A DNA stretch of 20,913 bases from a virus: the IMG/VR virus record IMGVR_UViG_3300003690_000321, positions 1 to 20,913 of that record. The stretch is one strand, 5' to 3'. The stretch's first letter is position 1. Every line of letters begins with the position of its first letter. This document shows positions 3,145-20,524 of the stretch, piece after piece. The translations under genes were made by a program, and so were the position numbers. Under the pieces are notes generated by a model. The model did no database searches. It worked only from the letters and a program-made list of their open reading frames with translations, and was not told the origin of the DNA.

Positions 3145-3437
3145 CTTAGAATCGCTATCCAAGCCACGTCGTCACCGTTGGTGGCAGCGTCAATGAAGAG
3201 CAGGTTGGCAACTATCGACCCTGGCCTATAGTCCATCTCCACCGTTGCGTCCACACCACCTGCCGCCCCCAGGGGATAGCCGTTCGTGGCGGAGACGTCG
3301 GAAAGGCCCACATACGTCAGGCCCGAGTTGGCAGTAGGCGCAGTGAACTTGATCCACATGATTTTGTCGGTGGTATTGAGAATACGGACTGCAGTGCCAG
3401 CGGACGGTACGTCCACAATATCGGAGTCGATACGCAT
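3141..3437 (-). CDS. Small beta-rich virion protein
   Basis: This is a 98-residue protein with ATG at 3437 and TGA overlapping the next start (ATGA). It is predicted all-beta: the N-terminus reads DSDIVDVPSAGTAVRILNTT, followed by a WIKFTAPTANSGLTYVGL strand pair and a C-terminal LLFIDAATNGDDVAWIAIL. The layout is that of a small jelly-roll or beta-sandwich capsid or neck accessory protein. The sequence does not let me name a family. Its ATG overlaps the stop of a 10-codon ORF (TAATG), and the upstream Shine-Dalgarno is poor, so initiation probably depends on translation from upstream. Confidence 0.8.
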   Translation of the reverse strand: MRIDSDIVDVPSAGTAVRILNTTDKIMWIKFTAPTANSGLTYVGLSDVSATNGYPLGAAGGVDATVEMDYRPGSIVANLLFIDAATNGDDVAWIAILR

Positions 3438-3469: not shown

Positions 3470-4740
3470 TAGGACACCAGCCTTCTGGGCTCTATTACAG
3501 GGTTTAAGGCCCTCTTAGCCTGCTCCATACGCCTAAACCACAGCCCAGCCCGTGTCCCGTGGGCGTCTGCGTCTGTGGTGCCCCCAGACTTAGCCATCAG
3601 TGCATGAGCCGTCACGTAGGCGATGATGTAGAAGCCGTCTATCTCGGTAGCCGTGGCGTCTGTATCCAGCGTAGCGGGCACATCGCCGCCCACGAGCTTC
3701 AGTTTGTTGTATGGGGCAACCCGGAGTGCGCTTGTGCTTAGAACGAGGTCTCGGGCCTCCTTGTCAATATGCCATAGGTGGGTGGGTATTGATGCCCAGT
3801 TGGCGTCGTCTTGGCGGGTAGCCACTATCTCATCGAACCAAACGGTATGTGCGCCTTTATCCACATTCATCTCTATGCCGATGGATATAAGGGCTCCGTC
3901 TTCCTCGGGATTATCCAAGGCGATGCTGAAGGGCGTCCAGCGGCGGGCTGTGGCAACCGCAGGCACATCCAAGGACTCTTTGTCGTTGCCGTCTGCCGTG
4001 ACCGTGCCGTTATCTAGGTGGATCACATAATCAGCGGCAGCAAGGGTCGTAGTGCTCTTTATCCAGCCCTCGATGTGGGTATACCCAGTAAGATCGGTGG
4101 AGTCTATGGAGTCAGTAGTGAACTCCCCGGCGTCAGCACCAACAGCAATAGTTATCTTCAGCGACGATCCGCGGCGATAGTCCTCAGTATCTATAGCCTG
4201 CGTGAACTCCCCAGCGTTGGGGGTCTCATCGAAGGTTCTCTCGCAGAGGTGTACCTTGGTTTTCTTGACGGACTCGCGGAACTCCAGGCGAGTCAGCATC
4301 TCGATGCCGTCTGGGACGTCGTATCGCCGCCTGATACCGTCTGAGAACAACGAGGTGTCCTCTACACGGTCCCAAGCGATCCCAGTGGCGTCAGTGATAG
4401 CCTGGTTGATTAGGTCGTGGATTATCGCAGGGTCGTGTGGCCCATCCCACAACTCGGCAGTGTCAGGCGAGGCGGTAGCTGCCGCCACTGGGTAGAACGT
4501 GAGCGTCTGCTGGTTAGAGCTTACGGAGGAGTCGGTTACCTGACGTATCTCGCCGTCGTTGGTGCCCGACGTGAAGACGATCCACTTGCCTATGTGCTCG
4601 TCGGCACCACCTATGGGGATGTCGTCGGTGATAAAAGTCGAGGTTGACCCTGATGCGTCAGCCTCTACGAGCTTGATCGCATTTAGGTTGTAGCCAATAG
4701 AGACCCGGAGCTGTTCCCTAGACCTTGCCTGGATTGCCAA
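3469..4740 (-). CDS. Virion structural protein with central carbohydrate-binding-like beta-sandwich
   Basis: This is a 423-residue protein. TTG at 4740 is the only plausible start, because the frame is closed by the TAG of the small upstream gene three codons earlier and the first ATG is about 150 codons in. Residues 1-100 form a beta domain (DEHIGKWIVFTSGTNDGEI). Residues ~105-170 contain a helix (IIHDLINQAITDATG) and ...MLTRLEFRE, as in head-tail adaptor-like proteins. Residues ~195-310 resemble a CBM-type jelly roll (GYTHIEGWIKSTTTL, TPFSIALDNPEEDGALISIG, HTVWFDEIVATR). The C-terminus has a helix with ALMAKSGGTTDADAHGTRAG. A neck or adaptor role for the terminal parts is inferred. The UUG start implies modest expression or reinitiation after the upstream TAG. 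Confidence 0.82.
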   Translation of the reverse strand: MAIQARSREQLRVSIGYNLNAIKLVEADASGSTSTFITDDIPIGGADEHIGKWIVFTSGTNDGEIRQVTDSSVSSNQQTLTFYPVAAATASPDTAELWDGPHDPAIIHDLINQAITDATGIAWDRVEDTSLFSDGIRRRYDVPDGIEMLTRLEFRESVKKTKVHLCERTFDETPNAGEFTQAIDTEDYRRGSSLKITIAVGADAGEFTTDSIDSTDLTGYTHIEGWIKSTTTLAAADYVIHLDNGTVTADGNDKESLDVPAVATARRWTPFSIALDNPEEDGALISIGIEMNVDKGAHTVWFDEIVATRQDDANWASIPTHLWHIDKEARDLVLSTSALRVAPYNKLKLVGGDVPATLDTDATATEIDGFYIIAYVTAHALMAKSGGTTDADAHGTRAGLWFRRMEQAKRALNPVIEPRRLVS

Positions 4741-5394: not shown

Positions 5395-5591
5395 ACCTTG
5401 GCTGGCACCTTTTCTTCAGACGTGTTGTTGATCTTCTCTTTCGGCGGGGCGGGCATGATATCCCAGTCGGTGTCACTGACAACTAGTCGCTCCAGTGGTA
5501 GCTCCCCACTCTTGAGTTGTTTCAAGAGACCGAGGAACTTGGCATTGTTTTCCCCAATGGTTCGGTTCAGGGCCACATTTATGGCCTTCAT
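5391..5591 (-). CDS. Small hypothetical protein (66 aa)
   Basis: ATG at 5591 overlaps an upstream TGA (ATGA), and the gene ends ATGA into the 185-residue gene. Residues 1-30 form a likely amphipathic helix (NRTIGENNAKFLGLLKQLKS). The C-terminal half is Pro/Lys/Glu-rich and probably disordered (MPAPPKEKINNTSEEKVPAK). The arrangement resembles short helical adaptor or chaperone-like proteins in head operons, but no family can be named. Confidence 0.65.
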   Translation of the reverse strand: MKAINVALNRTIGENNAKFLGLLKQLKSGELPLERLVVSDTDWDIMPAPPKEKINNTSEEKVPAKV

Positions 5592-5632
5592 CCGAAATCC
5601 TGCGGGGTGACGCTTACGCTTACCTCGGGCAT
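5588..5632 (-). CDS. 14-residue micro-ORF, possibly a broken gene tail
   Basis: ATG at 5632 is preceded by AGGA with 5-nt spacing and encodes MPEVSVSVTPQDFG, ending ATGA into the 66-residue gene. The frame is open upstream to the TAG at 5681-5683, adding DAITGESAGYDRID-like sequence that looks protein-coding. It may therefore be the C-terminal part of the 95-residue gene separated by that TAG, rather than an independent peptide. Confidence 0.35.
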   Translation of the reverse strand: MPEVSVSVTPQDFG

Positions 5633-5680
5633 ATCAATCCTATCGTAGCCAGCACTCTCGCCGGTGATGGCGTCCTCACT

Positions 5681-6003: not shown

Positions 6004-6525
6004 TTACGGGTCTATCGTAAGTTTAACAAGCTGGAAGTCAGTTGATACGGCAGGAATCAACGCTGCCACACCAATGCTCTCGTTGTCTTGGGCCGAAGAG
6101 GAGTCGAGCAGTACCCCAGCACCTGCCGCCGTGGTCTCCGCAGCAGTTACCTGGTCCCCAACAACCGATACACCCTGCATCAGTACCGCTGCATATCCCC
6201 ACGTCTGAAGCCAGCCGTAGTAGCTGGCCGTTATTGTCGTCGGGGAAACACCGGCAATGATGTTGGTGAGAGTGGTGGGCTGGACAATCACCGAGTCGTA
6301 CATGTTGTAGGTGAGTCCAACGAGGGAGCTTGTCGTCAGCGCTATCGAAAGTCCGTCTTCTTCATCTAGGGTGACGACTAGGCCAGCCGCGCTCGATACC
6401 GCAGTGTTGGACTTGATCTGATAGATCGTGCCCTCACCAGCGGCATCATTGACGTACATGTATCCTTCTTTGTACTGGTCTTTGGTAACGGTCAACGATG
6501 TTGATATGGTTACCGCGGTCGCCAT
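6004..6525 (-). CDS. C-terminal part of split head-decoration-like protein
   Basis: This is a 173-residue, beta-rich protein rich in Thr, Ala, Val and Ser. Motifs KEGYMYVNDAAGEGTIYQIK and TASYYGWLQTWGYAAVLMQG, ending ...LVKLTIDP, match a type of phage head-decoration/stabilisation protein I know from environmental phages. There, this part normally follows directly on the sequence encoded by the adjacent 6527-6748 ORF. Upstream of ATG 6525 the same frame also reads LNDVD, which continues the homologous beta strand. A +1 shift (or one extra base) near 6541 would therefore give one ~248-residue protein. The ATG lies inside the 5' arm of a 16-bp perfect hairpin, which should hinder independent initiation. 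Confidence 0.8.
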   Translation of the reverse strand: MATAVTISTSLTVTKDQYKEGYMYVNDAAGEGTIYQIKSNTAVSSAAGLVVTLDEEDGLSIALTTSSLVGLTYNMYDSVIVQPTTLTNIIAGVSPTTITASYYGWLQTWGYAAVLMQGVSVVGDQVTAAETTAAGAGVLLDSSSAQDNESIGVAALIPAVSTDFQLVKLTIDP

Positions 6526-6537
6526 ATCAACATCGTT
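6494..6537. repeat. 16-bp perfect inverted repeat with nested palindrome
   Basis: The left arm at 6494-6509 (AACGATGTTGATATGG) is the exact reverse complement of 6522-6537. The 12-nt loop contains the palindrome ACCGCGGT (6512-6519). In the minus-strand mRNA the hairpin spans the TGA of the upstream ORF and the ATG of the downstream ORF. There is no U-tract, so it is not a typical terminator. It could stimulate frameshifting, block initiation, or be a mutational product. Confidence 0.95.
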
Positions 6538-6748
6538 CAGCCGATACAGCCAAATCCATATCGTGTGCGGCTACCGTAGCTGGTGCCTGAACGATCCTGC
6601 CTGCGGCTATCTCGGTGCCTGCAGCCTGACAGTACCGATACACCCTGCCGTCAGTAAAGCTCATCCGAGTACCTAGCTTGTGACGCTGGTCAGAAGTAAG
6701 CACCTTCTCCCAACCAGGCTTTCCGTAAATCGTATTCGCAAATGCCAT
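6527..6748 (-). CDS. N-terminal part of split head-decoration-like protein
   Basis: This is a 73-residue ORF. ATG 6748 has a good Shine-Dalgarno (AAGGAGA, about 6 nt away). The sequence KLGTRMSFTDGRVYRYCQAA and GTEIAAGRIVQAP is typical of the start of phage decoration-type proteins in which a longer beta-domain follows. Here the frame ends ERC-TGA at the palindrome, while the missing continuation is found in a +1 frame immediately downstream. I read 6748 to 6004 as one gene broken or recoded at about 6541. It follows the major capsid protein by two genes, a usual place for such proteins. Confidence 0.8.
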   Translation of the reverse strand: MAFANTIYGKPGWEKVLTSDQRHKLGTRMSFTDGRVYRYCQAAGTEIAAGRIVQAPATVAAHDMDLAVSAERC

Positions 6749-14584: not shown

Positions 14585-16427
14585 TTAACCTCCGGGGCCG
14601 AATAGGCCTGCGTCGGAAAGACGTCTATCTGCGGACTGTGCGCCGGGCCTTGGTTGTCCTGGCGGGACGTTGGGCCCTGCCTGGGGAGTTGGAACCGGTC
14701 TCGGAGCTCCCTGCATGGGGCCTGGCAGCACTGTTGGGGCAAAGCCGGCGGTACCGTTCGGCGGGGGACCAGGGGGGCCACCACCAGGGGGACCACCAGG
14801 GGGACCACCAGGACCGCCACCACCAGGACCGCCAGGCATAATGCCTGCCTGCTGAAGAGCCATCTGCTTTTGCAGAAGCATCTCCTGCAACTCTCCGAAG
14901 AGTATCCGGGCTACCTCGTCTCGCCCCTGCTCCTCTGCCGCCACCATGTGGGTCCACATCACCGCTATCGGAGTCAACCGCTCTCCTTGCTGCTCCTTTA
15001 ATAGTCGGTCCATGTTGTCGGTATCTTGGATATTGAGCACGTTGTCCCATATCCATCGGTCAGAGGCAAGTGGCGTTGGGCCATCGCGCATAGCCTGGGC
15101 CTGAGCTACCTTGGCCGCATCGTCTTGAGGGAGTTGCCCGACCAGCTTGATCTCAATGGTGCAGGCTTCTTCCACCACCTCGGCGGGGATTTCCTCTCTG
15201 AAGAACTCGCGGTTCTCGTCAAAGCCCTGCGCGGTGACCTCTGCAAACTTCCCTGTGGCGTACTGCTCGGTGAACAGCCGCTCGATCTGTCGGTAGGAGT
15301 TCTCTATCAGGCGCAATCGGGGCTCTATTACGGTGTCAATGCCCTGACGAAGCTGAGTAATGGCGAACCCCGAAAGGGTGAAGGCGATCTCCCCGTATGC
15401 CGAGAACGGGAGTGAGCCGCGCTGTATCTCCCCGGTAATGAGACCCAAAAAGGTCCCGGTGTCCCTGACCATCTCCATTAGGGGAATGGTGTCGATCCTG
15501 TCGCCATCGGCCAGTGAAACGATCATGCCGGTCTCGGACGGGTGCTCTTCTAGCTGCTTGCGCCCGTCAGGAGAGGTTATGGACATCGGGCCCTTGCGGG
15601 AACGTGACACCAACTCCTCAACAATGGACATAACGAGGTTGTAGTCTTCTATGGTGCCGCGTATGGCCTTGAAGACGCTCTCGCCGTAGTCGGCGTCGGT
15701 ATCGGTTGAGCGCTCTACGGAAGACCTAATGGGCGGTGCACTGCCGGGGAACGCTATCCAGGCAGGAACACGCTTTCCACCGTGTACTGCGGGCTTCTTT
15801 AGAATCATGCCCTCGCCGACATCGGCAACGACGGTGTTGATCTTCTTGTCGTAGTAGTCGTAGACCATGAAGTCGTCTTCGGAGCCCATCGACTCTTCTA
15901 CTTCAAAGTCCCATTCGGCCTTGATCTCAGTGGCCGTCTTCTTTACGGCGTAGCAAATCCACTCCAGGCCGCCGTGTCCCACGCACCAGAAGGTGTGCAG
16001 GGGGTCCCACGGGAAGGCGTCGAAGACGGTTTTGCCGTCTACCTTCCTTATAAGAGCGCGCCCGCAGATCGGCCCGCGCACGGTCCCATAGAAGGACAAC
16101 TGCTCCTTGAGCACCGGGAGGCCCTGGTCCAGCAGCCCCTCGTCTATCTGGCGTAACGCTCCCCACCAGAACTTCTCTTTGAGGTTATCGAACTCTCGCT
16201 CATGTAGCTGCACATTGTGCTCTGGGCACCTGGCGGTCATCGCCGACGCCGCGCACCAGTTCATCACCTTGTCGGCGTAGTACATGGGCATTGGAGAGGT
16301 GTAGACCCGGAAGCCCTCGTTCTCCGTAGTCCTGCTCGAAGCGGTCTCTCAACGACGACGTGGCCCGCTCGTGCGCCTTGACCTTGTCGATGATCTCTTT
16401 GGGTTCTGGCCCCGTTACTTTAGCCAC
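14585..16427 (-). CDS. Portal protein, interrupted by one frameshift
   Basis: This is the head vertex channel through which DNA is packaged. The start is GTG 16427, directly after the terminase TAG (TAG|GTG). Residues 1-34 (ending LRDRFEQDY) lie in one frame. The continuation ENEGFRVYTSP and everything after lies in a +1 frame; the break is around 16317-16326. A shift-corrected protein would be about 613 residues. The second frame on its own starts at ATG 16291 (MPMYYADKVMNW). The sequence after the break shows portal-like order: YADKVMNW near the N-terminus, FYGTVRGPICGRALI, the helical core (LVMSIVEELVSRSRKGPMSI, LPFSAYGEIAFTLSG), and a Gly/Pro-rich low-complexity tail from about residue 480 of the main frame. 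The break could be a sequencing error, a mutation or programmed recoding. Confidence 0.85.
14764..14836. repeat. ACCACCAGG-type low-complexity repeat
   Basis: Reiterated CCACCAGGGGGA / CCACCAGGACCG units on the plus strand encode GGPPGGPP-type Gly/Pro sequence in the portal C-terminus. Copy number is probably unstable. Confidence 0.85.
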
Positions 16428-19603: not shown

Positions 19604-20524
19604 ATGGGAGTCTATACCGACAAGGCCACACTGCTGGCGCTGGCACGCGCTAGCGTGGCGTTCATAGACGGGCGCGGGCCGCGGCCCACAATGCCGGAAG
19701 GGTTCGCGATACCGCGCCGCGTCTCAAAGGCAAACGGTCCGGCGTCCGTATGGCCACGCGAAGATAGTACATGGCGCCGCGAGTGGCGCCGCTTCGAGAT
19801 TTTCCTAGACTCGGGCGGACAGAATCCGCAATGGGACCCCATTACCCACACCGGCAACGGCAAGCTCCCGTTCGCGGCGTTTAGCGCGGCGCCCGATATA
19901 ACGTGCCCAGGCGCTGGGCCGTGCCTACGGTGGTGCTACTCGTTCAAAGCCTGGCGCTACGCGGCGCCATATTTTCGCCAGCTACAAAACACGATACTGT
20001 TGCGGACGGTAGGGGGACGGGCCGCAATTAGGGACGCCGTTCACGCCATAGAACAGGGGCGCGAGTTCCGCCTATACGTTGACGGCGATTTTGACAGCAT
20101 CGAAACGATGGCGTTCTGGTTTGAGCTACTAGGCGAACGCGAAGATCTTCGCGCCTACGGATACTCAAAATCGTGGCCGCTATTCCTAAAGTGGGCCGCG
20201 TCCGGGCGCCCGTGGCCGTCCAATTACCAGCTAAACGCAAGCAGTGGCTCTAAATACGGCGCCGCCATGCTGGAGAAGATCAAGGCGCTACCCGTCTACC
20301 GCGGCACCTTTGACGCCATACCAGCGCCCTACGCAATGCCTACGCGTGCCATTGAGCCGCAACGCTGGCAGCAATGGGCCGCCATACTACGCCAGCGCGC
20401 CCGCGATATGGGCATGGGGAAAGTCTTCGTGTGCCCAGGCAAATGCGGCTCTTGCACTCCAGCAGGCCACGCTTGCGGCTCTTCGAGCTTCCGCGGTGTC
20501 CCGATAGTGATAGGGCTTCACTAG
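19604..20524 (+). CDS. Gp88-like Cys-rich phage protein, probable metalloprotein
   Basis: This is a 306-residue protein. ATG 19604 has AAGGAG 7 nt upstream. Cys cluster 1 is C101-x5-C107-x3-C111 in ITCPGAGPCLRWCYSFKAWR; cluster 2 is C277-x3-C281-x2-C284-x6-C291 in VCPGKCGSCTPAGHAC. Between them are FRLYVDGDFDS (159-165) and the conserved-looking AYGYSKSW and NYQLNASSGSKYG. This order (CPGA-C-CY, then GDF, then YSKS, then a C-terminal CPG-C cluster) resembles the mycobacteriophage Gp88 family and, more distantly, phage Gp37/Gp68 proteins, as I recall them. The Cys clusters suggest Fe-S or zinc binding, but no CxxxCxxC radical-SAM motif is present. The reaction is unknown. It is probably an early nucleic-acid or host-modification function. 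Confidence 0.82.
   Translation: MGVYTDKATLLALARASVAFIDGRGPRPTMPEGFAIPRRVSKANGPASVWPREDSTWRREWRRFEIFLDSGGQNPQWDPITHTGNGKLPFAAFSAAPDITCPGAGPCLRWCYSFKAWRYAAPYFRQLQNTILLRTVGGRAAIRDAVHAIEQGREFRLYVDGDFDSIETMAFWFELLGEREDLRAYGYSKSWPLFLKWAASGRPWPSNYQLNASSGSKYGAAMLEKIKALPVYRGTFDAIPAPYAMPTRAIEPQRWQQWAAILRQRARDMGMGKVFVCPGKCGSCTPAGHACGSSSFRGVPIVIGLH

Follow-up and report, generated by a model that had tools for sequence, protein, structure and literature searches.

A short-range template switch very probably broke a once-intact capsid-associated gene in the marine-type phage contig studied here. The window, i.e., the whole stretch of DNA analyzed, is a linear viral-contig record of 20,913 bases. In the window this gene is split between two reading frames, whereas it is intact in its relatives, and the piece of sequence foreign to the gene family is one arm of a perfect hairpin at the break.

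Genomic Context and Protein Identity

The broken gene (6748-6004, minus strand) is part of a tailed-phage structural block on the minus strand, which also contains the genes for terminase (17816-16428), portal (16291-14585, likewise broken) and major capsid protein (8207-7329) as well as tail-region genes. The major capsid protein matched Pfam Phage_capsid_4 and the PHROG major head protein, and the broken gene lies two genes downstream of it. In addition, a gene of Pfam PF17338 (phage GP88 family) was found at 19604-20524 on the plus strand, opposite to the structural block.

An earlier note on this DNA had called the broken gene a head-decoration gene. Similar to phage decoration and head-fibre proteins, such as phi29 gp8.5 and the capsid proteins of HFTV1 and T1, it is located near the major capsid gene, and its predicted fold is all-beta and weakly matches these three. 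The best Foldseek match was the phi29 head fibre gp8.5, with a weak E value of 0.017, followed by several capsid-associated proteins. Moreover, 6 of 59 full-length relatives matched phrog_29386, annotated as a virion structural protein (best E 5.7e-5). Different from the known decoration and head-fibre proteins, however, the gene had no significant sequence or fold match, and no Pfam match was found for it. When the family profile was searched against PDB sequences, the only matches were meaningless ones to antibodies. The position and the weak fold matches are in keeping with the head-decoration label, and this identity is plausible but unproven.

Two Fragments of One Gene

The N-terminal fragment (6527..6748, minus strand) comprises 73 amino acid residues and ends at the frame-0 TGA at 6527-6529, and the C-terminal fragment (6004..6525, minus strand) comprises 173 residues in frame +1. 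Their scores to the family profile were 106 bits over residues 1-71 and 211 bits over residues 76-248, respectively, and the fused reading scored 322 bits. The two ORFs thus match consecutive parts of one protein family, in line with the reading in the earlier note. The step near 6541 into LNDVDMATAV described there was also borne out: the gene has gained one base, the net +1 step lies at about 6541 and coincides with the palindrome, and the junction joins DLAVS to LNDVDMATAV. A good Shine-Dalgarno sequence, AAGGAG, precedes the ATG of the N-terminal ORF. The first ATG of the C-terminal ORF, in contrast, lies within the hairpin stem and has weak Shine-Dalgarno pairing, with a duplex energy of -3.8 versus -8.8 for the first ORF. 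In the structure predicted by AlphaFold2 for the closest relative, L003 (mean pLDDT 87.6), the break falls in a loop between the strands at 66-68 and 78-81.

Scans of viral contigs yielded more than 100 loci, from which 64 distinct family proteins were extracted; both gene ends were within the contig for 59 of them, and the other 5 were cut by contig ends. The entire match lay within a single uninterrupted ORF in all 64, and the 59 full-length homologs aligned in one frame. The two-ORF arrangement, which the earlier note would have taken as evidence against its reading if relatives shared it and made no fused product, was thus found in 0 of 64. When the intact relative proteins were searched back on the window, 71 relative ORF records had their match broken at about 6542/6522. 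The hairpin, the stop and the split were each found in none of the relatives examined. L003, of which L004 is a near-identical copy from another sample, has an intact gene, with a protein identity of 86% in the C-terminal part and a DNA identity of only 77%, and no nearer contig was found. No match was found by nucleotide search in 50,697 phage records, and a protein search gave one distant match (MW202566, 32%). Exact-DNA scans, in a collection from which near-identical records may be missing, found no other contig of the same virus, and a capsid-protein scan of bacterial and archaeal genomes found no prophage.

Programmed +1 frameshifting of the prfB type and bypassing of the gene-60 type both involve two overlapping frames, a stop and a hairpin. 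The window is similar to these systems in that overlapping frames and a stop also occur there with a strong structure, and the earlier note had accordingly proposed +1 frameshifting stimulated by the hairpin. Different from these systems, however, the arrangement in the window is not conserved and has no recognized slippery site, and its structure covers the stop itself. In all 64 relatives, a single frame suffices for the protein, with neither a shift nor the hairpin; the TGA does not precede the structure but is part of the 5' arm of the stem; reading of the sequence revealed no known +1 slip motif; and the shifted reading would put six family-foreign residues into the protein. Programmed frameshifting is therefore extremely unlikely. 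Bypassing was considered as well and dropped.

A Perfect Hairpin over the Stop and Start Codons

The earlier note had described a 16-bp perfect inverted repeat with a nested palindrome over the TGA and the downstream ATG, and this description held in full. On the minus strand, the upstream arm AACGATGTTGATATGG (6522-6537) and the downstream arm CCATATCAACATCGTT (6494-6509) are complementary at 16 of 16 positions and are separated by the 12-nt loop CGACCGCGGTAA (6510-6521), in which the palindrome ACCGCGGT is nested at 6512-6519. The upstream arm is thus the reverse complement of a segment only 12 nt away, and the hairpin spans 44 nt. Both the frame-0 TGA and the downstream ATG (6523-6525) are within the upstream arm.

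With loops of up to 30 nt allowed, no other stem in the window exceeded 10 bp, and stems in 40 first-order Markov shuffles reached 12 bp at most. Its RNA fold had a z value of -5.6, and none of 200 shuffles reached equal stability. The palindrome is real, is well past chance expectation and is without a counterpart in the relatives. Perfect 16-bp arms with a nested palindrome could also be expected of a conserved regulatory DNA or RNA element inside the gene. However, the palindrome was absent from all relatives examined, no second copy was found in the window, and an Rfam scan gave no match, which leaves a regulatory element with a next to negligible probability. The tRNA and terminator scans likewise returned nothing relevant. 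A terminator was considered and dropped.

Other hairpins were found in related loci. For instance, L013 contains at 5591-5646 a 14-bp inverted repeat in which TTAATACTACCTGT and ACAGGTAGTATTAA flank a 28-nt loop; it lies about 40 nt past the same gene, inside the next coding gene. Repeats of this type were also found in L010, L014, L054, L055, L081, L082, L086, and L104; neither the window nor more distant relatives have them. In both arms, the outer 11 nt are invariant despite synonymous positions, and the loop varies synonymously; this repeat is possibly a conserved hairpin embedded in coding sequence. L134 has three hairpins, at 3349-3391, 4345-4385, and 5471-5515, whose stems of 16-17 bp differ and whose loops share the motif AAACAAGTGA. 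These loop-motif hairpins were not seen in other loci of the set.

The Upstream Arm Is Foreign to the Family

Comparison of the two arms with the relatives, as the earlier note had suggested, identified the upstream arm as the foreign piece, both against L003 and against the 59 full-length relatives. In the alignment with L003, a single extra base and a burst of differences fell exactly over the upstream arm: 6 of its 16 bases were identical, compared with 78% elsewhere (P about 6e-4). In the downstream arm, 11 of 16 bases were identical, including the family sequence ACATCGTT, and this arm encodes the family-like TISTSL. Its inner half (ATATCA) also differs from L003, however, so that part of the match between the arms could predate the event.

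The protein alignment gave the same picture. Of the 247 residues of the fused reading, 10 were never seen at their column in 59 relatives, and six of these 10 are consecutive (L70 N71 D72 V73 D74 M75) and are essentially the product of the upstream arm. Among the residues that LNDVDM replaces is the glycine G75, which 55 of 59 relatives have. All residues encoded by the downstream arm, in contrast, occur in relatives, and both flanks of 70-75 are family-like. In a rough likelihood calculation that included no prior for the event, copying was favored by about 13.5 log10 units relative to independent changes. Given the cluster of differences, the gain of one base and the perfect repeat, the changes are best read as a single copying event, in which the downstream arm, the presumed template, would have been copied over the upstream arm as an inverted copy. 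As DNA identity to L003, the closest relative, is no higher than 77%, the exact sequence before the event and the switch points are approximate.

A Probable Short-Range Template Switch

In short-range template switching, synthesis of a growing strand moves from its template to a complementary segment nearby, which is copied before synthesis comes back (PMC7954356, PMC8794818, PMC7202029). The copied length has a median of 12 nt, 65% of the events lengthen the sequence, and perfect inverted repeats often result (PMC7954356); the same mechanism was described in PMC8794818 and PMC7202029. With about 16 nt copied and a net change of +1, the event here is typical of known template switches. During synthesis of the strand complementary to the gene, the growing end would have formed a fold-back at the small central palindrome or moved to the other strand, used about 16 nt of the newly made downstream arm as template and then resumed copying of its normal one. 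About 15 nt of coding sequence would thereby have been overwritten by a 16-nt inverted copy, generating the perfect hairpin and the +1 frame, with both stem codons, TGA and ATG, as by-products of copying. We infer this direction of copying and the fold-back route; the central ACCGCGGT, in whose place L003 has ACCACGGT, would permit the nascent strand to fold back.

The event shares an adjacent inverted copy, a perfect stem, a mutation cluster and a small length change with a frameshift with the quasipalindrome or short-range template switches of the Ripley model (PMC7202029, PMC7954356, PMC8794818). Different from these, the ancestor here is deduced from relatives of at most 77% identity. At the hairpin site, L003 has only a near-palindromic center, ACCACGGT, and no strong stem (z +1.5). 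Since no strong pre-existing quasipalindrome is visible in L003, the narrower label of quasipalindrome correction is not proven. Of the quasi-palindrome template-switch mutation put forward in the earlier note, the switch itself, with completion of the repeat and loss of the frame, is strongly supported, and a quasi-palindrome in the exact sense is not needed.

Age and Origin of the Break

Between the window and L003, the N-terminal part had a dN/dS of 0.13, and the C-terminal part had one of 0.11. These values give no sign of long relaxed selection, which argues for a recent break or an artefact.

The low dN/dS in both halves would also be consistent with a functional split, in which translation stops at the TGA, restarts at the ATG one base further on and makes two polypeptides on purpose. 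The TGA-T-ATG spacing allows reinitiation, and the break falls in a predicted loop. However, no relative is split, the nearly invariant glycine is lost, the ribosome site is weak and the ATG is buried in a very stable stem. Reinitiation would be physically possible, and a deliberate split is very unlikely. Similarly, the initiation switch with the ATG hidden in the stem, as proposed in the earlier note, is unlikely, given the lack of conservation in relatives, the weak duplex and the position of the start codon. It is highly improbable, too, that the template switch has just turned one capsid-associated protein into two coupled polypeptides that still assemble together, with TGATATG in the hairpin; if true, a gene split would have been caught in the act in a phage. 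We infer that the allele left by the switch is most likely a loss-of-function allele or is present only in the assembled sequence.

A second lesion was found near the start of the portal gene (16318..16326, minus strand), where the frame changes and 26-50 nt are missing compared with relatives. The N-terminal frame of the portal gene starts at 16427, with its first 27 recognizable residues at 16326-16406, and the remainder, from 16318 to 14588, is in another frame. About ten portal homologs from the relatives' own contigs were unbroken, each being one ORF of about 620 amino acid residues. The presence of lesions in two virion genes, which is unusual among these contigs, suggests that the genome is defective or that amplification, sequencing or assembly introduced errors.

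The same copying event may thus have happened in vitro, by polymerase snap-back during amplification or library preparation or through assembly from few reads, with the gene of the virus itself intact. The portal lesion on the same contig, the unbroken homologs of this gene in 64 relatives and of the portal in about ten, the absence of relaxed selection and the lack of a second contig carrying the sequence are all consistent with such an origin. Chimeras of multiple displacement amplification likewise arise when the polymerase switches between nearby inverted templates, but such chimeras are typically inverted one-way joins accompanied by deletions (PMC1855051). Here, in contrast, the original template was taken up again after 16 nt. 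Furthermore, the 44-nt hairpin would fit inside single reads, and the other comparable genes of the contig are intact. As a sub-case of the template switch, an in-vitro event has a considerable probability, somewhat short of an even chance, and natural and in-vitro origins of the switch are about equally likely.

Implications

The mutation is of an ordinary kind that has been described before, or else it is a copying artefact. The allele itself is of little importance and may be an artefact. Nevertheless, comparison of each arm with many intact relatives shows that a known copying error can account for a striking combination of palindrome and frameshift in a phage contig from a metagenome. The same test could be used to screen phage contigs for template switches and for false claims of programmed frameshifting.
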